This document shows, in pieces, positions 11,842 through 39,118 of a stretch of DNA of 64,000 nucleotides (its first letter is position 1; each line of letters opens with the position of its first letter). Source of the DNA: Rhodohalobacter sulfatireducens (GTDB taxonomy: Bacteria; Bacteroidota; Rhodothermia; Balneolales; Balneolaceae); the NCBI RefSeq assembly GCF_022012475.1, contig NZ_JAKLWS010000002.1, positions 1 to 64,000 of the forward strand, given 5' to 3'. The translations under genes and the position numbers were made by a program. Below the pieces are notes generated by a model. It was not told the DNA's origin. It searched no databases and saw only the letters and a list, made by a program, of their open reading frames with translations.

Positions 11842-13776
11842 TTGAGGTGGGGAATAAAAATATTATTTCTGATTCTATTGCTTATATGGATCGTTCCCCC
11901 CGGGCAGGCTCAAGTACAAAAGCCAGATAGTCTTTACGAAGCCGCCTCCGCCACATCCGATCCAAATGAAAAAGCCCAAATTTTTCTACAACTAAGTCAG
12001 CTAACTACTCCCACCGATCTGAACTTAGCATTGGAACAGGTAAACCAGGCAACAGAACTGGCGGATGACGCAGAGTTGCTGGGGGATATTTACGACCAAA
12101 AGGGCAGGGTTCATTTTGCGCTTGGTGAACTGGATGGAGCTCTCAGCAGCTTTCGTGAGGCTAAAAGACGTAAAGAGGCAGCCGGAAATGACGCACTGGC
12201 CGCACGGGTTAACAATCGTGTAGGAGTGGTACTGGTAAGATTAAAACGTCTTGAGGAAGCCATGGAGGTGTTCCTGGAGAGTGCAGCCTATTTTGAGGAA
12301 GCCGGTGATGACGTTAACCTGGCGATGAGCCATAACAACATGGCCGGTATTTTTGCCGATATGGGAGATTACGAAAATGCGGTTCGATATAATGAATTGG
12401 CATTACCGGTATTTCAGGAAAATGATATAAAACAATATGAGATCATTACGCTCACAAATTTGGCAGGCCAACACCTTAGGTTAGAAAATTTTGAAAGTGC
12501 TATCGAGTATAATCAACTGGCTGAAGTGATAGGCGAAGAGTTACAGGATCAATATGCGTTGGGGATAGTTTACAACAATTTTGGGCAGATCTATTTTGAG
12601 CGTGGGGAGATCGAAACTTCACTCGACTATTATGAGAAATCGCTTGCGGCAAAAAAGTCAATTGGCATCAATTCAAACCTTGTACCTACCTACAATAATC
12701 TTGGACAATCACTTACAATGTTGAACAGGCCTCGAGAGGCTATTCAGTACTTGATTCAGGGTTTGGAAATTGCACAGGGGGATGAACTTTGGCATGTGAC
12801 CAGCAACCTGTCTAAAGCCTATTCGTTAGCAGGTGAACCGGATTCATCCACGTATTATCTCGATCTGACGCTGGCACATCGCGACAGTATATTTACCATG
12901 GAACGCCAACTTGTGATTGACGAACTTCGAACGCAATATGAATCTGAACAGCAAGAGATGGAAATTGTGCAACTGGAAGAGAGCCAGAGGCAAAACAGGA
13001 ATCTCTTAGTTCTTATCTCAGGGTTGTTCGGAGCTACGCTGGTTATTGCTTTCCTGGTGATTAAAAATAACCGGAAGAGAAGGGTCATAGCGCAACAAAA
13101 TGAAAAAATAGAGAAGCAACATGTTGAGAAGTTATTGAAAGAGCAGGAGTTGATTGGTATCAATGCTATGCTTGAGGGACAGGAAAAAGAGAGAGAAAAA
13201 ATTGCCGAGGAGTTACATGATACAATCGGTAGTTCATTAGCCACCCTTAAACTTTATATTGAAAGTTTGGATGAAGTGAAAGGAAACGGGGATTACCATA
13301 AGCTCCATCAGAAAGCAAGCCATTTGTTGGAAGAAACGTATGATGATGTACGAAAAATTGCTCACAGTAATAGCGTGGGTGTGCTTATCAAAAAAGGGTT
13401 GGTGCCGGCTGTCAAGTCGATGGCATTGAAGATTTCAGAGGCGCAGAGAATTGATATCCAGGTGATTGGAACCGGGTTGGAAGACAGGTTGGAAAATAGT
13501 GTTGAAATTGGAGTCTTCAGAACTATCCAGGAACTACTTTCTAACGCAGTGAAACACTCAGGCGCATCCGAGGTTGTGGTTCAGATCACCCAGCATGATG
13601 ATATATTAAATATCATTGTAGAAGATGACGGATTGGGTTTTGACCCGAATAATACTCAGTGGGGTATGGGCTACACAACCATCCAGAATCGAATGGATAA
13701 TCTGAACGGAGAATTAACAATCGACTCCTCCACGGGAAATGGAACAACCGTAATTTTAAATGTGCCGGTCGATTGA
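11842..13776 (+). CDS. TPR-containing sensor histidine kinase (HisKA_3, NarL-partner type)
   Basis: The 644-residue membrane kinase has a signal peptide (to about 23), a periplasmic array of tetratricopeptide repeats (about 40-345), a single TM (388-407), a coiled coil, a HisKA_3 dimerisation domain with phospho-acceptor H459 in EELHDTIGSS, and an HATPase_c domain with N568 (ELLSNAVKHSG) and DDGLGF (595-600). Such kinases phosphorylate LuxR/NarL-type regulators; one is encoded at 18812 after two envelope genes. The TTG start at 11842 is chosen because GAGG lies 5 nt upstream and it gives a proper signal peptide. Confidence 0.9.
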   Translation: MRWGIKILFLILLLIWIVPPGQAQVQKPDSLYEAASATSDPNEKAQIFLQLSQLTTPTDLNLALEQVNQATELADDAELLGDIYDQKGRVHFALGELDGALSSFREAKRRKEAAGNDALAARVNNRVGVVLVRLKRLEEAMEVFLESAAYFEEAGDDVNLAMSHNNMAGIFADMGDYENAVRYNELALPVFQENDIKQYEIITLTNLAGQHLRLENFESAIEYNQLAEVIGEELQDQYALGIVYNNFGQIYFERGEIETSLDYYEKSLAAKKSIGINSNLVPTYNNLGQSLTMLNRPREAIQYLIQGLEIAQGDELWHVTSNLSKAYSLAGEPDSSTYYLDLTLAHRDSIFTMERQLVIDELRTQYESEQQEMEIVQLEESQRQNRNLLVLISGLFGATLVIAFLVIKNNRKRRVIAQQNEKIEKQHVEKLLKEQELIGINAMLEGQEKEREKIAEELHDTIGSSLATLKLYIESLDEVKGNGDYHKLHQKASHLLEETYDDVRKIAHSNSVGVLIKKGLVPAVKSMALKISEAQRIDIQVIGTGLEDRLENSVEIGVFRTIQELLSNAVKHSGASEVVVQITQHDDILNIIVEDDGLGFDPNNTQWGMGYTTIQNRMDNLNGELTIDSSTGNGTTVILNVPVD

Positions 13777-13811: not shown

Positions 13812-13833
13812 AAATACCTATGAGTAGGTATTT
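13812..13833. promoter_or_regulatory. Palindrome AAATACCTA-N4-TAGGTATTT, candidate NarL/FixJ-type operator
   Basis: Arms 13812-13820 and 13825-13833 are a perfect 9-bp inverted repeat around TGAG. Read as TACCTAT-GA-GTAGGTA it fits the 7-2-7 NarL arrangement (TACYYMT half-sites, one mismatch in the second). It ends 71 bp before the ATG at 13905. A second copy lies 62 bp before the gene starting at 20085. The LuxR-type regulator at 18812 is the obvious candidate ligand. A weak, A/T-rich terminator for the kinase gene is the alternative, since TTTCTT follows. Confidence 0.5.
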
Positions 13834-13904
13834 CTTATGAGCCTTCCTGTCAGTTCATTACAGTAGGAACAGAGGTTTGGGTACAAACTCTAAAATTTAC
13901 TGCA

Positions 13905-15983
13905 ATGAAAAAAGAGATCATTGCCATACTGCTCATATGTTGTCTGCCAACATCAGTTCTTTTCGCACAACAGACGGAGTTAAGGGAGATCCAGGAAGAG
14001 ATCATCACTGTTCGCCAAGAAATCCAGAAAAGTACTGCTTCATTTTTACTGATTTCAAAGCAACTCACCCAAGGTGAACAATCGGTACAATCCACTGAGG
14101 ATTATGTTCAAATAATCGATCAGAGAGTGATTGTTCGAGAATTGGATTTGGAAACATCTCCGGTGCTTTCAGAGGTTCTAGAAGGAGATGAATATATACT
14201 GATCGAACAGAGAAATGATTGGTTGAAAATTGAGCTTGACGATGGACGAGAGGGGTGGGTTCGGCGCGAAAATGTTCAGATCATCGAGAGAGGAGGTCAT
14301 AGCGAACGACCCGTTTCTGGGGATCCTCGAATCAGGCAGATGACAGAACAACTTTATTTAAATATTCAGAGCCAATACGACCGGGCTGAACAACTTTTTG
14401 AGGAATTTGAAGAGATATATGAAGATCTCTCATCATCCGAAAAAACTGAAGTTTCAGGTGTTTATTCAGGCTACCTGGAAGAAAAAGAGAAGATTCAAAC
14501 CTACAGGGCGTATGCGAATCATTATCATGGAAAAATTGGGATCTTTCCATCTGGACAAATGGCAACGACAGCGGGTGGGCAGAGAGAAATTGGGTTCCGG
14601 GGAACGGCATCACTCAGGCTGGGAACTTCTTCATATGAAGCGGCGACAAAACAATCCACAACATCGAGGAATGTAAATTTGAATGGGGCTGTAATTTTTA
14701 GTCCGCAATCGAGATTGAATGTAAATATCAACCACAACAACGATGTAGTCCAAACTCCCTATACTTCGAACGATCTGAACCTCAGCTATCAACATCAAAC
14801 AGAAGGGGGGACCCGATTGCGTGGTTCGGTTTTATACAATTCTTACAATGATGAGGCTTTAGATCGGAATAACTTTCAAAATGTGGGTATAGGTGCAAAT
14901 GTCGATCATCCAATAAGCAACAGAACAAGGGTTTTCGGGGATATTAATGCGAATTCTAAAAGTTTTGATGTTGAAGATGGAAATGGATTTGAAGGTGCAG
15001 CGTTTAACTCCGGATTAAACTACAATGGGGCAAAAACGCAGGCAAATGTAGGAGTCAGGGGGCGTGTTCAAAACAGCGACGTTAGCTTCCTGGATTTCAT
15101 GAGAGTGATTCCAAACGCTGCTGTCCGCTGGTTGACGGGCAGCGGTAGTTTTGGGATCAGGGCGGAAGCGGAACAGTTAACCTATGATACTGAAGCTGAA
15201 GGAAATAATTTCAATCGAGGGCGGGTTGATCTGCAGTGGTCGGGCAGAACAAATTCAAGTTCTCTGATCTTGATTGCCAAACAGTATCCAAACAACGAGG
15301 CTTTTGATAATTACAGGCTGAGGCTGCAAAATCAATGGAATAAAGCGAAAAGTATCGGTTCTGCCAGAACGGCGTTATCACTTCAATATGTCTATCATCC
15401 GCAGGAAGAAACCCAGCTTACAAACTATATTGATCTTCGATTCGACAGAAACAGCAGTGGCCAGAGAGCCTATTTTGACTTGAATCTTTTTGGCCGTTAT
15501 TGGGAGGATACAGACAGATATCACAGGGTTGATTTATTCAGTCGGTTTGGGTTTAAATTCAATCAATTTCAGATTGGCCCGGCCATTGGTGCTCAATTAC
15601 TATTAAATCAGAATGATATTCAAGTTGAACAAAGCGGGAATAGTTTTAGGCTTGGTGTAGACGCCCGTGCTAATGCAGCCATAGAAACAGTAACAGTGTA
15701 TGGAAGCCTGCGATACCAAAAATCGCTTGTTTACAACAGTGAAATATCAATCAACACAAGTACGGGAACAGTCACACAGGGAGATCTTCAATCAAGAATG
15801 CCCACAACTATTCAGTTTAGTGCGGGAGTCCAGGTACCCATTATGGATGCTTTAGATTTTAAAATTGATGCCAGTTACTACAATGTGGACCTGGATATTT
15901 CAGATGAGATTAGTATCAACCCTGTTCAGACACGAACCGGACTGCGGGTACTCGGGGGAATCAGTTATAGATTTCAGAAATGA
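13905..15983 (+). CDS. Outer-membrane beta-barrel protein with N-terminal SH3b domain (function unknown)
   Basis: A signal peptide (to about 21) is followed by a short coiled coil, a bacterial SH3 domain (about 70-127, VIVRELDLETSP...GWVRRENVQII) and a helical linker. From about residue 230 to the end there is a long run of alternating polar/hydrophobic strands rich in Asn, Ser and aromatic residues, ending ...GGISYRFQK, as expected for an outer-membrane barrel. SH3b domains often bind cell wall, so the protein may tie the outer membrane to peptidoglycan. It is 13 bp upstream of the next gene and lies between a histidine kinase and its regulator. I do not recognise the family. Confidence 0.75.
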   Translation: MKKEIIAILLICCLPTSVLFAQQTELREIQEEIITVRQEIQKSTASFLLISKQLTQGEQSVQSTEDYVQIIDQRVIVRELDLETSPVLSEVLEGDEYILIEQRNDWLKIELDDGREGWVRRENVQIIERGGHSERPVSGDPRIRQMTEQLYLNIQSQYDRAEQLFEEFEEIYEDLSSSEKTEVSGVYSGYLEEKEKIQTYRAYANHYHGKIGIFPSGQMATTAGGQREIGFRGTASLRLGTSSYEAATKQSTTSRNVNLNGAVIFSPQSRLNVNINHNNDVVQTPYTSNDLNLSYQHQTEGGTRLRGSVLYNSYNDEALDRNNFQNVGIGANVDHPISNRTRVFGDINANSKSFDVEDGNGFEGAAFNSGLNYNGAKTQANVGVRGRVQNSDVSFLDFMRVIPNAAVRWLTGSGSFGIRAEAEQLTYDTEAEGNNFNRGRVDLQWSGRTNSSSLILIAKQYPNNEAFDNYRLRLQNQWNKAKSIGSARTALSLQYVYHPQEETQLTNYIDLRFDRNSSGQRAYFDLNLFGRYWEDTDRYHRVDLFSRFGFKFNQFQIGPAIGAQLLLNQNDIQVEQSGNSFRLGVDARANAAIETVTVYGSLRYQKSLVYNSEISINTSTGTVTQGDLQSRMPTTIQFSAGVQVPIMDALDFKIDASYYNVDLDISDEISINPVQTRTGLRVLGGISYRFQK

Positions 15984-15996
15984 AGGATAACAGAGG

Positions 15997-18768
15997 ATGG
16001 AAAAAATGAAAACGCACACTTATTTGGAAAAAATTTTCAGCAAGGTTGTCCTTTTGATGTTTATCGCTTTAACGATCATCCAACCCCCTGCGTTATTGAT
16101 GGCTCAAAATCAGGAGTTTGAGGAAGCCAACCAAATTATGCAGGGAATGAATGAGAGTCTTAAAGAGGTGAATGCAGATATTGAACAAGTACAATCGTAC
16201 TACCAACAATTGAAGGATTGTTTAAGTGGTGCCGGTGAAACGGGTACGGAATGTCAGCAGTACATTGATTTATTATACAACATGGAGGGAGGTGGAATAG
16301 AGCTGCAAGACCAGGTGATGACGGTAAAAGAGTTGGGGAACCAGATTATTCAACGTTTCGAAGAAACCAATGCTTTCCAGATGTTAAATGATGCCGCTGA
16401 AAGGTTTGGCTCAATCGGAACAATGGTTGATAATTCAGCGAATGCAATGGCATTTGCACAAAAATTTAATCCGGAAGGTGCCAGGGAAGACCCAACACGT
16501 GCACTGCGAATGATTGGTGAAGCGATTGGTGGAGCAGCGGGTAGTTTGCCTTACCCGATGGATAAAATCTTTGAGGGTTATGCAAATTCCGTAACCGTAA
16601 TTATTGGCCGTCTAAATCAGCTTCAAAATAAAATTGAAGAAGCCAGGCAGGGAAGTTTGGGAGCCAGTTACAGTGGGTATGCAGCTGCGCAGGAATTTTT
16701 TGATACCAATTTTGCCAGTAATTCCAGGTTAAGTATCGAATTTTTTGATGTCACATCTCAGTTTCGATTGCTCGGTGGAGATGTTCAGGTATTCCAAAAC
16801 CTGGGCAGCCTCACAAGTGAATACTATGTTTATAAAGGAGATACAAATCGCGGATGGATCGCCCCAACAGTTTTCAGTGAAATCTATAACTATTTTGAGG
16901 CTGTGCCGTCATCCGATAAAAGTGAAGTAACCGTGGGTTACAGGGCGGAGCTAATTGTTTCCCAGGCAATTTCGAATCCAAGAGCTGAGATAAATGAGGC
17001 AAAAGAACATTATAACACCTTCAGAGAGATTGACACTCAATTCTATGTTCGAAGAATTTTGGAGGAGATGCAGTTACTAAATTCAATGAATTCTTTAGTT
17101 GAAGCCGGTGAAGATGCATTTATCGGTTATTGGTTACTGATTGCTTCAAAGCACAGAGAAATTCGGAATATTGTTGAAGTAATTACAGGGTATGTCTATT
17201 CCGAAGGAAAAGTGTTGAAGGAAACAGAATCTGGTAGAGAACCAGCACCTGGGGAATTGGTTACTTTAACTGTAAGCGGCGGGGGAACAGGACAGGTTAG
17301 TTCTGAAGAAAATGGTGATTATTTTGTATACACAAGAGGTAGAGAAGGATCCGATTTTACAATAACAGCCGGACAGGGTGAAGAGAGATTTGAAGAGTCG
17401 GGCAATTTTTACCAGCAGGGATTTGATGGGTTTAATTTGATTTTAAAAAGTGTAGAGGAGATTCCGGTTAGCCTCACAATTTCGCCAGCGGAAGCAAGCC
17501 TCGAGATTGACGGTTCAGTTAGTTTTACCGTTTTTGCAGTTTTTGATGATGAATCGACGAGAAACGTTACAGAGTTAGCTACCTGGAATACGGGTAGTAG
17601 TAGTTTTACAGCTACCGAAGCTGGTGAAACAACAGTAACTGCTACATATCTGGGGCTTTCAGCAAGTGCAGTAGTTATCGTGGAGGAAGCAGCTCCTCAA
17701 TGTAACGAACCCAGTGAAGTGTTGGATGAAGAAACAGGAAATTGCGTATGCAACACTGCCGAAGGATATGAGATGAATGAGGAACTTGGAAAATGTATCA
17801 ACATTGATGAAGCATTGGAGGAAGTGACCGAGGAGGGAGATGCACTATGTGATGAGCAATCACTCATTGCCAGCCTGGCCAGGCTCGATGAAATTGTGGC
17901 TTCAGGAAATCGTTTGGCAGCTAATTTTCGTGCTACGGTCAACAAATTTATGAAAGAAGTAAACGATCAAAATTCAGACATCTGCGAGAATACAATCATT
18001 GCCGCGGCGTTTGCCGGAGCAAAGGATCAACAGGCTGAATACCAGGTTTTGGTAGATGAAGCGACCCGTTTAAGCACCGATCTGATTTTGGAGAGTAGCC
18101 TGTGTCCGCTCGAGGACGTTGAAATTGATATCAATAGTATCCTTCAGAAAATATCTCAGTTGGGGCCCATTCAAGGAGAGATGGAAGATGGATTGGCCAT
18201 GATGGAAGATCAGCTGCAACAGCAGTCTTGTGATACCCAGGAAGTGGAAGACCAGGGAGATACCATCGCAGAACGCGATGACCCCGAAGTGATTCAGGCA
18301 GGTGGAACCGGTGCCACAGAGATCTGCGGTGATGGAATTGATAATGACGGAAATGGTTTGATTGATGATGGCTGTGCGGGAGCAAGTAATTTCAACGTAA
18401 CAATCAGCCTGTACGATTCAGGGAATTTAGCTGATGATGTATTTGGACTATCCGTTTCCGGCCAGGGGAACCTTGGAAATACGCCGGAGGGCGGGTTGAG
18501 AGTGTATCCATTGCGCTTATCTCCCGGTTCGTATGTTGCAACCATTACAGTAATCAAGGCACCGGACAACCAGGGAACGTATACCATTAGCATCATGGAA
18601 GGTTCGCAGGTTCTGAATTCCAGTACGGGTTCACCGCCCCAGGGATCCGTGATTGACGTACCATTTTCTGTAGGTGGTAATTCAGATGCAACGGCTGAAA
18701 CTGAATCAATGCTGCCTATGCTGATGAACTCTATGAGGCAAATCGATCAAACTGAAGGAAGTAATTAA
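15997..18768 (+). CDS. Large secreted protein with Ig-like (Big_2) and MopE-type metal-binding motifs
   Basis: A 923-residue exported protein with a signal peptide near 15-36. Residues about 40-400 are helical with no recognised domain. About 410-480 looks like a carboxypeptidase-regulatory-like or beta-sandwich segment. Residues 488-560 (LTISPAEASLEIDGSVSFTV...) are a Big_2 Ig-like domain, followed by a small Cys-rich module (about 567-602) and, at about 774-790, CGDGIDNDGNGLIDDGC, which matches the MopE-type putative metal-binding repeat. Co-transcription with the preceding barrel gene (13-bp gap) and the following regulator is likely. Function unknown; a surface or envelope-associated role is inferred. 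Confidence 0.75.
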   Translation: MEKMKTHTYLEKIFSKVVLLMFIALTIIQPPALLMAQNQEFEEANQIMQGMNESLKEVNADIEQVQSYYQQLKDCLSGAGETGTECQQYIDLLYNMEGGGIELQDQVMTVKELGNQIIQRFEETNAFQMLNDAAERFGSIGTMVDNSANAMAFAQKFNPEGAREDPTRALRMIGEAIGGAAGSLPYPMDKIFEGYANSVTVIIGRLNQLQNKIEEARQGSLGASYSGYAAAQEFFDTNFASNSRLSIEFFDVTSQFRLLGGDVQVFQNLGSLTSEYYVYKGDTNRGWIAPTVFSEIYNYFEAVPSSDKSEVTVGYRAELIVSQAISNPRAEINEAKEHYNTFREIDTQFYVRRILEEMQLLNSMNSLVEAGEDAFIGYWLLIASKHREIRNIVEVITGYVYSEGKVLKETESGREPAPGELVTLTVSGGGTGQVSSEENGDYFVYTRGREGSDFTITAGQGEERFEESGNFYQQGFDGFNLILKSVEEIPVSLTISPAEASLEIDGSVSFTVFAVFDDESTRNVTELATWNTGSSSFTATEAGETTVTATYLGLSASAVVIVEEAAPQCNEPSEVLDEETGNCVCNTAEGYEMNEELGKCINIDEALEEVTEEGDALCDEQSLIASLARLDEIVASGNRLAANFRATVNKFMKEVNDQNSDICENTIIAAAFAGAKDQQAEYQVLVDEATRLSTDLILESSLCPLEDVEIDINSILQKISQLGPIQGEMEDGLAMMEDQLQQQSCDTQEVEDQGDTIAERDDPEVIQAGGTGATEICGDGIDNDGNGLIDDGCAGASNFNVTISLYDSGNLADDVFGLSVSGQGNLGNTPEGGLRVYPLRLSPGSYVATITVIKAPDNQGTYTISIMEGSQVLNSSTGSPPQGSVIDVPFSVGGNSDATAETESMLPMLMNSMRQIDQTEGSN

Positions 18769-18811
18769 CAGTAAGATTCGCGTTTTTAAAGAATCTGAGA
18801 TAGATTGAAAT

Positions 18812-19438
18812 ATGATAAGGGTAGCAATAGCAGACGATCACCAGATGTTTATTGATGGCATTCGATCCATCCTGGATAATGTGAGTTATATTACCATAGT
18901 GGCCGAAGCCAAAGATGGTCTTGAATTGATCAAAGCCGTTGAAAAAGAAAACCCTGATATTGTACTGACAGATATCCGGATGCCTGGAATGGATGGTATC
19001 GCGGCCGTTAAATATCTGACTGAGAACTACTCACATATCCCGGTGCTGGCTCTAAGTATGTTCGACCAGGAAGAGGAGGTTATTGATATGCTCAAAGCGG
19101 GAGCGGCCGGTTATATCATCAAAAAAGCGGGAAAGGATGAGTTGGTTACGGCCATTCAGAAATTGGTCAATCGAGGCCACTATTATAGTGATTCCATTTC
19201 AGCCAATGTCCACAAATGGTTAGAAAATCCGGAGATGGTTGAAGAGTTGACTCCACTTACAAAAAGGGAACGCCAAATCCTGAAACTGATTGCCGACGGA
19301 AAAACCTCACAACAGATTGCAAGATTCCTTAAAATCAGCAAATACACCGTAGATACTCACCGAAAAAACATCCACAAAAAACTGGATATCAAAACCAACA
19401 CCGGTCTTGTGAAATATGTGTTGGAGAATATGCAGTAA
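18812..19438 (+). CDS. NarL/FixJ-family response regulator
   Basis: A 208-residue two-domain regulator: receiver domain with acidic pocket DDH (8-10), phospho-acceptor D54 in LTDIRMPGMDG and conserved Lys near 104; then a LuxR-type HTH from about 146 (LTKRERQILKLIADGKTSQQIA...TVDTHRKNIHKKL). It is the natural partner of the HisKA_3 kinase at 11842. It lies 43 bp after the large secreted-protein gene on the same strand, so the transcript starting before 13905 would include it, and the palindrome there suggests autoregulation. Confidence 0.93.
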   Translation: MIRVAIADDHQMFIDGIRSILDNVSYITIVAEAKDGLELIKAVEKENPDIVLTDIRMPGMDGIAAVKYLTENYSHIPVLALSMFDQEEEVIDMLKAGAAGYIIKKAGKDELVTAIQKLVNRGHYYSDSISANVHKWLENPEMVEELTPLTKRERQILKLIADGKTSQQIARFLKISKYTVDTHRKNIHKKLDIKTNTGLVKYVLENMQ

Positions 19439-19455
19439 TTAATCAGACTACCATT

Positions 19456-20085
19456 TTAGGTATTATCCCAATTATAAAAAGTAAGTCTTGCTTCGGTCGG
19501 ATCAAGATTAAAAAAGATGACTCTCTCCGAGCCCCATGAACCATTTCGAGCAAAGGTAAACCGCTTCGTTTCTCTGGTAATTTCCTGTATTTGCCCTTCT
19601 TCATCAATATATTCAACAATAACCTCGAAGATATCCCCTTCATGAATTACGATATCTTCAGGAGTAAATCGGGTGATATCAGTTGCAAACTCATCATATT
19701 TTATTTCAAAAATGTAACTCTGATCATGGATATTTATGACAATATTGTAAACTTCATCACTAAATATCCGTCCATGGTCTAAGGCGATATAAATATTATA
19801 CGCGCTCAGATCAATTCCGGGCAACTTACACCCCGGTTTAGCCTTGTTACTGAAAGTACACGTCTCTGCCATGACCCCTACAGCTGAGTCGAAATGATCG
19901 CAATCTTCCCGAATTTGGTCCCATGCTTTTTGCATGGTATTGGGATTACAACCTTGGGCATCAATTTTATCGTACATATGGTCGATAGAGCTCTGGCATT
20001 TATCACATTCATCTTCGCATTCAACTGCCATTAAAAACATAGATGTAAAAATTACAAGTATAGAAAAAGCCTTGAAGTGTCCCAT
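19456..20085 (-). CDS. Cysteine-rich secreted protein of unknown function
   Basis: A 209-residue protein with a hydrophobic export signal (about 5-21). The first 90 residues are rich in Cys (ECEDECDKC near the start, then five more), suggesting disulfides after export; the C-terminal half looks all-beta. The first Cys does not sit in a good lipobox (AVEC). I recognise no family. The gene converges on the response regulator with a 17-bp gap, and a palindrome nearly identical to the one before 13905 lies 62 bp ahead of its start, so joint control with the two-component locus is inferred. Confidence 0.65.
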   Translation of the reverse strand: MGHFKAFSILVIFTSMFLMAVECEDECDKCQSSIDHMYDKIDAQGCNPNTMQKAWDQIREDCDHFDSAVGVMAETCTFSNKAKPGCKLPGIDLSAYNIYIALDHGRIFSDEVYNIVINIHDQSYIFEIKYDEFATDITRFTPEDIVIHEGDIFEVIVEYIDEEGQIQEITRETKRFTFARNGSWGSERVIFFNLDPTEARLTFYNWDNT

Positions 20086-20147
20086 TTTTTCTGAAATGTA
20101 GTTGGAGATTTATTGGGTTTATTTTTCAGAAAAAAAGGCGCTTCTTC

Positions 20148-20167
20148 AATACCTATCGCTAGGTATT
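20148..20167. promoter_or_regulatory. Second ATACCTA-N4-TAGGTAT palindrome, candidate NarL/FixJ-type operator
   Basis: Perfect 8-bp arms AATACCTA (20148-20155) and TAGGTATT (20160-20167) flank TCGC. Arm sequence and 4-bp spacing equal those of the site at 13812-13833. It is 62 bp upstream of the secreted-protein start at 20085. I noticed no third full copy in the window. On the plus strand it is followed by TTTATTTTT, so a terminator remains possible, although no plus-strand gene ends near it. Confidence 0.5.
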
Positions 20168-20233: not shown

Positions 20234-22714
20234 CTATTTGATCAATATCATTTTACGGGTTCGGACAAAGTCGGATGTTTTTAAGCGATACATATAAACT
20301 CCGCTGGCAAGATTCCTTCCATCAAATTCAACATCATGATAACCGGCTTCCACATTTCCGGCCTGTAACGTAACCACTCGAGTGCCGGAAAGATCAAATA
20401 TATCGAGAGTTACATCAGATTCTTGAGCCAGGTAATAGCGAATTGTAGTAACTGGATTGAAGGGATTCGGATAGTTCTGGGCCAAGTCTGTATCCTTATC
20501 CACTTCATTTAAAATGGGTGAATCCGGATCTTTCAAAAGTGAAATCAAAAACTGTTCTTCAGCTTGTTTCATTAAAGTTTTGGTAGATGCAATGACTGTC
20601 CATTTAATGGCGAATTCACTTTCGATGGTAATATTAGACCTTTGCAGGATATTCGTCAACTCCCGGTAGGTCATTGTATACTCTTTGGACTCTGCAATAG
20701 TGATCTCAGCCAATGGATCAGAAAAATCACTAGCCGGTCTGTCAATGAGCAATGTATACTCAATATCGAGCTCTGTTTCCCGAATATCCCATTCAAACGT
20801 TATCGTGCTGTCGGGGTCAATGTCTATTTGAATAGTTGTCTGATCAGTGGGATTCTTAAGATGAAAGTTTTGAATGTAATCATTCGTGAATTCAGCCTCA
20901 CCGAATGCTACATTAGAATAGGCCGATAATCCATTCGAATCTTTGGCACGAACCCTGTATTGATACAGCTTCTCGCCTATATTATTATCAGAGTACATAG
21001 AGTCACTCTTCTGTATGGTAGCGATTCTTTGGAAATTTTCACCGTCACCAGGTGATCGCTCAATAATAAATTCAGTTTCCTTGATAGAGGAGTGGTTCCA
21101 GTTCAATTCCAGTTGATTCTTCTCATTATTTGAGACAGTTAACAATACCGGTGCATCAGGTGGAACTCCATTGGCAAGCCGTTCATTAAGTTGGGCTTTA
21201 TACAGTGATGCAGGGATGGCATCTGTATTCGATCCTTCAATATATCCCGTCGGGTGATCATAGATTCCTTCTCCGGAAACGGACCCTTTATTACCAATAC
21301 CATAATTTTGAGCAGTTGGTGGTTTTTGAATGAAGATATACTGACCACCCGCATCTACATTCCATGCAACAGAATGAACGGCTCCCCATCCATGCGAAGA
21401 TCCAAAATCTCCCCGGTTGTATAGCCCTAAGACAAAATAGGTTTGAGGATTTTCGAAGGTTACATTGTCGTATAACAAACCTTGACTCCACTTCTGGTGT
21501 CCCTCAGAAGAGTTGAGAGCTCCCCGGGAGTGAGCGTTCAGAAATACAATTCCCGAAGAAACACTTGTTCCGTTTGATACAAATGAACGCCGCCCATTGG
21601 TGGAATTTACATTTTCGAAAAGTATATTATTCGAAAAGAATTGCGAATTGAAGTTGTAACGTTTCTCACCGGTCAGTGGTGAATGCGGCTCAAATGCACC
21701 CGAATTTGCTATGGTGATATTTCGCGAATTTGCGGTTCCGAAGCCTGTGGAGCTGAAGTGAAAAATGTTTATATACCGTGCCCAACCATTTTCAACACCA
21801 TGAAAGATGACCCCGTTTTCGGCATGGTTTTCTGAACGTTCTCCACTGCTCTGAATCTCAATTCGCAGGTATTCCACTCCGGATTTCTCAACAAGTTTTT
21901 TTCGATCCACTACATAAACTCTTGTTTCAGCCAAAGAACGGTCAAGATGGTTAAAAATCGGTGCATCAACAGAAATGGTGCTGTCTTTGATTCCCGTAAT
22001 TGTACGGTTGTAGTAAATCTCGATATACCCCTCTTCCCAGGGTGGATCGGTTGCCGTGCCCCCACCATTAATGGCATCGAGCCATTTTTGGCTGCTCCTG
22101 TGGCGCAGGATGATGTTATCTCCAACCTCAAAAAAACTAATATCCCCGACTTCAAAATTTCTTGATCCAACAGGAACAAATGGTGTTGTAACTATCGTTC
22201 TGGGATCCCTGTAATTCCAATACCAATCGTATTCCCCGGTACCGATTTGTACGACTGTGCCCCGGAATGATCTTGAAACCTGCAGAATAGTTGCATCTGT
22301 AGGATCAGGGCCGCTGCCGGCACCACGTAACACTACTCCCGAAGTTTCGATTTTCAGTTGATCTGATACCTGGTAAATTCCAGGTTCAAGAAGCACCGCT
22401 CCACGTACTCCGTTTTCGTCAACAGGCAGTCCCTCAACGTAAGAGATCGCTCCTTTTATTCTGTTGGTGTCGTCCCCGGGTTGTGGTCCTACTGTAATTT
22501 TTACAGGATAGTAGGGAAGTTCAGCTTCTCCACTCATGTACCCGGCATGACTAAAATCGGGGATCCTGTTTCCTTCCTGATCTGAGAAATAGGTTAGTCG
22601 CTCGCCGCTTTTTTGAAGGGCAGAAGAGGTATGCTGAGCATACCCGGGTAAAGCTATAAGAGATAGCAGGATGAGGTAGATAAAACGATCCAATATTTTA
22701 TGGTCATTCCTCAT
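20234..22714 (-). CDS. Secreted beta-helix protein with FN3 domain and type IX secretion sorting domain
   Basis: The 826-residue protein carries a signal peptide (ends GYAQ), a pectate-lyase-like right-handed beta-helix (about 75-480, with VLLEPGIYQVSDQL and VVLRGAGSG at its start), a fibronectin type III domain (about 525-610), another beta domain, and a C-terminal sorting module of about 85 residues. The last begins with LAQNYPNPFNP and ends with ASGVYMYRLK and RKMILIK, the FlgD-like/Por signature of type IX secretion cargo. It likely binds or cleaves a polysaccharide at the cell surface; the catalytic residues are not evident. It ends 66 bp from the palindrome at 20148. Confidence 0.85.
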   Translation of the reverse strand: MRNDHKILDRFIYLILLSLIALPGYAQHTSSALQKSGERLTYFSDQEGNRIPDFSHAGYMSGEAELPYYPVKITVGPQPGDDTNRIKGAISYVEGLPVDENGVRGAVLLEPGIYQVSDQLKIETSGVVLRGAGSGPDPTDATILQVSRSFRGTVVQIGTGEYDWYWNYRDPRTIVTTPFVPVGSRNFEVGDISFFEVGDNIILRHRSSQKWLDAINGGGTATDPPWEEGYIEIYYNRTITGIKDSTISVDAPIFNHLDRSLAETRVYVVDRKKLVEKSGVEYLRIEIQSSGERSENHAENGVIFHGVENGWARYINIFHFSSTGFGTANSRNITIANSGAFEPHSPLTGEKRYNFNSQFFSNNILFENVNSTNGRRSFVSNGTSVSSGIVFLNAHSRGALNSSEGHQKWSQGLLYDNVTFENPQTYFVLGLYNRGDFGSSHGWGAVHSVAWNVDAGGQYIFIQKPPTAQNYGIGNKGSVSGEGIYDHPTGYIEGSNTDAIPASLYKAQLNERLANGVPPDAPVLLTVSNNEKNQLELNWNHSSIKETEFIIERSPGDGENFQRIATIQKSDSMYSDNNIGEKLYQYRVRAKDSNGLSAYSNVAFGEAEFTNDYIQNFHLKNPTDQTTIQIDIDPDSTITFEWDIRETELDIEYTLLIDRPASDFSDPLAEITIAESKEYTMTYRELTNILQRSNITIESEFAIKWTVIASTKTLMKQAEEQFLISLLKDPDSPILNEVDKDTDLAQNYPNPFNPVTTIRYYLAQESDVTLDIFDLSGTRVVTLQAGNVEAGYHDVEFDGRNLASGVYMYRLKTSDFVRTRKMILIK

Positions 22715-39013: not shown

Positions 39014-39118
39014 CTTCCCCTCTTGGGAGGGGACAGATAACGGAGCGTTCAGCGGAGTTTTCAGGGGTGGGTTCCCGTGACGAACACACCCCTAAATCCC
39101 CTCTCGAGAGGGGACTTC
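39014..39118. repeat. Composite C-rich palindromic repeat inside the his operon
   Basis: CCCCTCTTGGGAGGGG at the left, a central GGGGTGGG...CACACCCC pair and CCCCTCTCGAGAGGGG at the right fill almost all of the hisC-hisD spacer. It is the most complete copy of the repeat family also seen at 10234-10365 and in part at 5985, 8898 and 50590. Confidence 0.7.

Follow-up and report, generated by a model that had tools for sequence, protein, structure and literature searches.

Introduction

The closest described counterparts of the system reported here are NarX/NarL of Escherichia coli and FimS/FimR of Porphyromonas gingivalis. The NarL/NarP half-site is TACYYMT (PMC4886647), half-sites are paired as 7-2-7 (PMC4549865, PMC7419079), and NarL activates from a site centred at -44.5 (PMC7419079) and from sites at -40 to -49 and -38 to -47 (PMC4549865). 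FimR binds the mfa1 promoter (PMC1974823), and the letters 'palindrom' do not occur in that paper. Here we describe two palindromes in a 64,000-nucleotide stretch of the Rhodohalobacter sulfatireducens genome (contig NZ_JAKLWS010000002.1, positions 1 to 64,000; hereafter the window, whose numbering we use throughout). The palindromes stand before two envelope-protein genes of a locus that also encodes a sensor kinase and a NarL/FixJ-type response regulator. On comparative evidence, they are very probably operators of this local regulator, which would form an autoregulated circuit confined to its own locus, and they would belong to a wider operator class.

Among the matches listed by our literature search we saw no description of the locus or the motif, nor of an operator of a LuxR-type two-component regulator in this lineage, a negative that is in part weak. 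Two papers that match the motif letters were rejected as unrelated, the available text concerning an OmpR-type direct repeat in one (PMC7755780) and CRISPR tables in the other (PMC5395568).

Results

The two palindromes share their arms and differ in the spacer:

13814..13831, no strand: palindrome 1 (site 1), putative operator, ATACCTA-TGAG-TAGGTAT, exact 18 bp, ATACCTATGAGTAGGTAT
20149..20166, no strand: palindrome 2 (site 2), putative operator, ATACCTA-TCGC-TAGGTAT, exact 18 bp, ATACCTATCGCTAGGTAT

A first-pass annotation of this DNA had reported both, with coordinates padded by one or two bases, and had placed them 62-71 bp before a start codon. Both are real and exact, and the counted distances are 73 bp from site 1 to the ATG at 13905 (plus strand; palindrome centre 82 bp upstream) and 63 bp from site 2 to the start at 20085 (minus strand; centre 72 bp upstream). 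At up to two mismatches the window holds two matches (shuffle mean 0.07; two were reached in none of 100 shuffles). Perfect 7-4-7 inverted repeats (7-bp arms, 4-bp gap) are about as frequent as expected by chance (seven in the window; Markov-1 mean 5.5), and only 1 of 200 random sequences contained two copies with the same arms. One other arm-sharing 7-4-7 pair is present in the window, with TCCCCTC arms at 39016 and 39097, 81 bp apart.

The whole 5.1 Mb genome (labelled G000) contains the core TACCTAN{2,6}TAGGTA at two places, both in this locus. The proposed genome scan therefore yields no scattered exact copies, and the earlier remark that there is no third copy is true of the entire genome. 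Read backwards, the pattern has nine matches in G000, although it then differs in word content and is an imperfect control. A wider regulon in G000 was considered and rejected: outside the locus there are no sites with one mismatch and six with two, five of which fall inside open reading frames (ORFs) of at least 100 amino acids (aa). The one-mismatch site of a related genome, G002, also lies inside such an ORF. Counting weak and exact sites together, the six genomes that carry the locus hold 45, as against 172 for the reversed control. A sigma-70 promoter scan performed no better than on shuffles.

The genes of the locus follow in the order kinase, site 1, barrel, 923-aa gene and regulator, and then the 209-aa gene on the minus strand with site 2 before it. 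Kinase and regulator are encoded as first annotated.

11842..13776, plus strand: sensor histidine kinase, 644 aa, with TPR repeats, HisKA_3 and HATPase_c; signal peptide and transmembrane segment by eye
13905..15983, plus strand: predicted outer-membrane beta-barrel protein, 692 aa, with N-terminal long helices, an SH3 domain, a helical pair and about 25 predicted strands
15997..18768, plus strand: predicted secreted protein, 923 aa, 12 Cys, encoded by the barrel's partner gene; secretion signal by eye
18812..19438, plus strand: NarL/FixJ-type response regulator, 208 aa (Response_reg 1.5e-28, GerE 2.8e-18)
19456..20085, minus strand: Cys-rich protein of 209 aa, small and predicted to be secreted; palindrome 2 is proposed to control its gene

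A locus with the kinase, barrel, 923-aa, small envelope and NarL-type regulator genes occurs in 6 of the 28 genomes of the genus, with proteins in the relatives 41-80% identical to those of the window. The core palindrome is found in the same six genomes, as ten exact copies, all within the locus, plus one copy with a single mismatch (G020); across the 28 genomes the reversed pattern, again an imperfect control, has 11 matches. When the 11 sites are aligned, 13 of the 14 arm columns are invariant and the remaining one has a single exception (site 2 of G020, G for A). The four spacer columns carry 0.06-0.76 bits. Flanking columns are mostly low as well, and those that exceed 1 bit (-7, -3, +17, +22 to +24 and several of those between +39 and +52) do so partly through shared ancestry.

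The sites also hold their position. The barrel ATG follows the centre of site 1 by 69-83 bp in all six loci, and the centre of site 2 lies 72-141 bp before the small gene in all five loci whose contigs reach it, the mismatched copy of G020 included (start codons were set at the homologous MKK start in G017, G002 and G020 and at the listed ORF start in G011). The comparison of orthologous loci, likewise proposed by the first-pass annotation, thus finds the sites strictly conserved before orthologous genes. What lies upstream of site 1 varies: the kinase gene in the window and G017, a 245-aa OMP_b-brl_2 gene in G012, and a divergent lipoprotein-like gene in G002, G011 and G020 (in G020 the product matches DUF6252 at 27.6 bits, cut-off 27.2). 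In G012, G017, G002 and G020, site 2 comes after the 923-aa gene, and in the window gene and site are found together, inverted, past the regulator, so that the site has moved along with its gene. The regulator comes after the site-1 unit in the window and after the site-2 gene in G012, G017 and G020. Since a unit headed by a palindrome precedes it in both arrangements, autoregulation looks to be kept in each, provided that the genes are co-transcribed. In the window the regulator starts 43 bp past the 923-aa gene and is therefore probably part of the palindrome-1 operon.

Of 244 class genomes, seven have the barrel gene at E<=1e-8, namely G000, G002, G011, G012, G017 and G020 of this genus and G485 of another family; at E<=1e-15 it is found in 4 of 394 evenly drawn genomes of the phylum, all four of this genus. 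Scanning a contig collection for the barrel added one new record, L082, from a Bacteroidales metagenome-assembled genome (MAG), and four of the six genus genomes are present there as Balneolaceae MAGs. The 923-aa gene occurs in those same six of the 244 class genomes and adjoins the barrel gene in all six loci and in L082. The kinase has orthologues in five of the 28 genus genomes at E<=1e-100, and the G002 assembly lacks one. All six genomes have the regulator gene, at full length in G000, G012, G020 and, with an in-frame stop, G017; the G002 contig ends 13 codons into the gene, and a G011 contig begins with its last 29 residues, from TVDTHRKNI onward. The best match of the regulator has E <=7.4e-78 in the three full-length relatives (stop-bearing G017 included), 1.2e-76 in G020, and 2.8e-43 or weaker in the other 22 genus genomes. 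The 209-aa orthologue of G012 is 40% identical and lies in the opposite orientation between the 923-aa gene and the regulator. The small gene product is Cys-rich in the window and G012 and lipoprotein-like in G017, G002 and G020. Upstream of the kinase, G017, G011 and G020 (L042, L044, L045) have an adjoining gene of 345-346 aa, with a weak FecR-like match in G020 (E 0.013); the window and G012 have instead two genes that we take to encode MacB-like permeases.

Two distant genomes carry the barrel without the regulator. L082 (JAFGXK010000073.1, 4136-8367) encodes a barrel (38% identity, no SH3 region) and its partner (29%), with no kinase or regulator adjacent and no site at up to two mismatches in 13.1 kb. 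Since both genes occur there without kinase, regulator or palindrome beside them, the barrel and 923-aa genes may be a unit of their own. In G485, a genome that is 72% complete, the barrel and its upstream DNA lie on a 3.3 kb contig with no site. Neither genome has a regulator orthologue (best scores 157.5 bits for L082 and 133.9 for G485; orthologues score 404-424 and the paralogue 171-174), and the exact core is absent throughout both, G485 having one one-mismatch site on another contig. These two cases are supportive of a link between regulator and site, and not decisive.

The 18-bp pattern also occurs outside the genus. It was found in 18 of the 394 phylum genomes; 14 of these, with 19 sites, belong to other genera, while the reversed control gave 10 sites, 9 of them outside the genus. 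In a first look, 5 of 15 out-of-genus sites fell inside ORFs of at least 80 aa, with an ORF caller that accepts any start codon. We compared the 18 regions that hold the 19 sites (16 kb, or to the contig end) with 40 control regions of 16 kb on the same contigs, taken from 12 of the 14 genomes and none from the short-contig genomes G240 and G159. A helix-turn-helix (HTH) domain like that of the window regulator (tblastn E<=1e-5) is encoded in 9 of 18 site regions as against 2 of 40 controls (Fisher 1.7e-4), and within 3 kb of the site in seven regions as against one control (p 6.9e-4). The recognition helices of the nine read NTHRKN, ETHRKN, NTHRRN, DTHRKN (twice), LTHRRN, DTHRKN, LTHKKT and ETHRKS, all conforming to TH[RK][KR]; the window regulator has DTHRKN (within TVDTHRKNI), and the two control helices are HTHVKN and ESHRKN. 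Among 26 loci of 40%-identical paralogues, the 12 helices that were read (plus strand only) are all TVDAHRRNL or TIDAHRRNL, and the core palindrome is absent from all 26. Nor did the surroundings of the 26 homologous regulators reveal a convincing family of common inverted repeats, the most widely shared one (4 of 26) lying within the matched coding stretch.

These out-of-genus loci are not orthologous to that of the window, yet the same plan recurs. In four of the nine HTH regions the site directly adjoins a kinase gene encoded with a NarL-type regulator. In L114 it separates a divergent secreted-protein gene from a TPR-HisKA_3 kinase gene, after which comes the regulator gene (secretion and lipoprotein calls in these regions were made by eye). 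L115 (G240:C57, 7846-8242) has two sites separated by 379 bp; on one side of them is a 7TMR-DISM/HisKA_3 kinase-regulator pair and on the other are divergent lipoprotein-like genes. The L128 site is ahead of a TPR kinase-regulator pair with a divergent gene opposite; in L129 the 18-bp site is behind the kinase gene and a second, 12-bp copy of the core lies between divergent TPR kinase and regulator genes. Elsewhere, the site stands between a PAS-LuxR gene and a secreted-protein gene (L113), before an operon holding a LuxR-type gene (L122), or upstream of genes that precede a kinase-regulator pair (L116, L119); L125 is less clear.

With regard to the proteins of the locus, the kinase matches TPR_12 (4.6e-31), HATPase_c (2.2e-12) and HisKA_3 (2.9e-07) in Pfam, and both HisKA_3 (31.4 bits, cut-off 24) and HATPase_c (47.8, cut-off 26.4) score as in HisKA_3 sensor kinases. 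The regulator scores as a NarL/FixJ type (Response_reg 99.6 bits, cut-off 30.2; GerE 65.7, cut-off 23.5), its nearest solved structure is NarL 1a04 (E 5.4e-29), and its HTH is the only one above the Pfam cut-off among six locus proteins scanned. In the barrel protein, Pfam detects SH3_3 (9.4e-07), and Pfam and NCBIfam scans assign no barrel family. Its structure model (predicted local distance difference test, pLDDT, 76.7) resembles, as the top fold match among those listed, Mtr complex chain B (6r2q_B; Z 21.2, root-mean-square deviation 4.1, 434 residues), which we take to be the MtrB barrel, and next among those listed PapC (Z 17.8). The model of the 923-aa protein is poor (pLDDT 55.5), and the 209-aa protein has no Pfam match at E<=1 and no NCBIfam match at E<=0.1. 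Our favoured guess is that the barrel is a large pore that exports or displays its 923-aa partner. Directly upstream of site 2, the window encodes an 826-aa protein (20234-22714) with a type A sorting tail of the type IX secretion system and SusE/fn3-like domains, which adjoins the G012 locus too.

Discussion

In the reading that we favour, the TPR-bearing kinase (11842-13776) would phosphorylate the regulator (18812-19438), and a regulator dimer would bind TACCTA-N4-TAGGTA about 70-140 bp before start codons, where it would most likely act as an activator adjoining the core promoter. Palindrome 1 would switch on the genes for the barrel and the 923-aa protein and, in this genome, also that for the regulator; palindrome 2 would switch on the small Cys-rich or lipoprotein gene and then, in G012, G017 and G020, the regulator. 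The circuit would be autoregulated and restricted to its own locus, and its operator would be one of a wider class recognised by LuxR-type HTHs with a TH[RK][KR] helix. Should the AT-rich block at columns +39 to +47, some 31 bp beyond the palindrome centre, be a core promoter element, the operator would lie near -45, a position from which NarL activates napF, yeaR and ogt (PMC4549865, PMC7419079). The first-pass annotation had already read the locus as a self-contained regulon; that reading has come through the genome scan and the orthologue comparison, and the HTH enrichment supports the type of binder, while the identity of the local regulator as that binder, its phosphorylation, the activation and the correspondence of helix and operator are what we infer from these patterns.

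Several points weigh against this reading. Within the genus, site and regulator share one locus and so are not independent evidence. In the G017 regulator gene (L042:1237-1863, G017:C182, minus strand) the HTH region is interrupted by a single in-frame TAA, yet both palindromes and the target genes are intact, which may reflect a draft error, decay or another binder. The sign of regulation is deduced from position only, and the seventh base of the NarL 7-2-7 heptamer is not conserved in the palindromes. In the out-of-genus comparison, the control regions were placed by hand at round coordinates and are not random draws, the nine HTH regions amount to about eight independent cases because G140 and G353 are congeners with similar loci, and 9 of the 18 site regions have no such HTH in the surrounding 16 kb. 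The latter (L117, L118, L120, L121, L123, L124, L126, L127 and L130) carry exact palindromes that could be chance copies, have remote targets or serve another binder.

The alternative that survives best is that the palindromes are operators of a regulator encoded elsewhere and that the local two-component system acts on other targets. Invariance marks a sequence-specific DNA site and not its binder, and G017 keeps its sites despite the stop in its regulator gene. We nevertheless consider a distant regulator unlikely: within the genus the sites are confined to this locus, the local regulator sits in a palindrome-led unit in both gene orders, the two barrel genomes that lack a regulator orthologue also lack the exact site, and LuxR-type HTHs are enriched beside the palindrome in other genomes.

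The proposal of the first-pass annotation that the palindromes might instead be intrinsic A/T-rich terminators fails. Both window sites sit within 100 bp past a stop codon, and as single strands they can form hairpins with 9 and 8 base pairs (for the 41-nt fragments, -8.8 and -8.4 kcal/mol, z -2.0 and -2.9). A terminator scan lists neither, which says little because the scan needs three G-C pairs and the stem has two. What decides the matter is that site 1 lies between divergent starts in three of the six loci (G002, G011, G020), which refutes termination unless those copies act otherwise; moreover, the upstream genes change while the downstream genes stay. No pair has changed on both sides in the 11 sites, and since an RNA stem would tolerate compensating changes, the constraint is on the DNA sequence. 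Terminators are thus very improbable. It is just as improbable that the palindromes are recombination or mobile-element ends of a movable cassette. In favour of this are the 6.3 kb stretch bracketed by the two copies, the patchy occurrence of the locus (6 of 28 genus genomes) and the different arrangement of the 209-aa gene and site 2 in G012. Against it, no recombinase or transposase was found among the six proteins scanned, the sites hold their relation to start codons, and the pair of sites does not enclose the kinase gene or, in G012, G017 and G020, the regulator gene.

Beyond the operator reading for this locus, we put forward, with somewhat less than even confidence, that TACCTA-N4-TAGGTA is a phylum-wide operator class read by LuxR-type regulators with a TH[RK][KR]N helix, which in this genus would control an undescribed large-barrel envelope module. 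Equally tentative is the part of this proposal by which such operators would typically occupy a common promoter region, with a kinase-regulator pair (TPR or 7TMR kinase) on one side and divergently transcribed envelope or secreted-protein genes on the other. Comparison resolves the putative operator to single bases and supplies natural controls, and the motif recurs in distant genomes next to regulators with a helix of the same type. If the proposal is true, this would be the first helix-to-operator rule for a large regulator group that is unmapped as far as our literature search shows, and if the link between helix and operator is real, targets of many uncharacterised kinase-regulator pairs in the phylum could be predicted from sequence.

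Compared with known systems, the barrel protein shares a large-pore beta-barrel fold with MtrB and with the PapC/FimD ushers, and a shared fold shows no function. Unlike the porin-cytochrome barrel MtrB, it has an SH3 domain and long N-terminal helices and no CXXCH partners; this motif is absent from the kinase, barrel, 923-aa and 209-aa proteins (the four checked), and an electron conduit is therefore unlikely. FimS/FimR resembles the present system as a two-component system whose regulator is reported to activate a cell-surface gene directly, as the regulator here putatively does. The targets differ, being fimbriae in the one case and a large barrel with its partners in the other, and the kinase matches the FimS model NF053520 in three stretches at 74.6 bits, below the cut-off of 600.

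The likeness to NarX/NarL is closer. Both have a receiver-GerE regulator and two inverted half-sites with four bases between them. The regulator scores 132.3 bits against the NarL equivalog NF007935, below its cut-off of 250; the recognition helix is TVDTHRKN where NarL has TVKVHVKH (1a04 alignment); and NarL governs a wide regulon, here a single locus. The fit to the 7-2-7 layout claimed in the first-pass annotation stands for the six outer bases TACYYM and the four central bases, which agree on both sides in 10 of the 11 sites (site 2 of G020 has one G for A). It does not stand for the seventh heptamer base, which is T on the left in 3 of 11 sites, A on the right in 3 of 11 and right on both sides in none, so that the strict consensus is not matched. 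Unlike NarL operators, these palindromes always have an extra outer A/T pair. By its design, the palindrome would work in the manner of NarL sites without being one in the strict sense.

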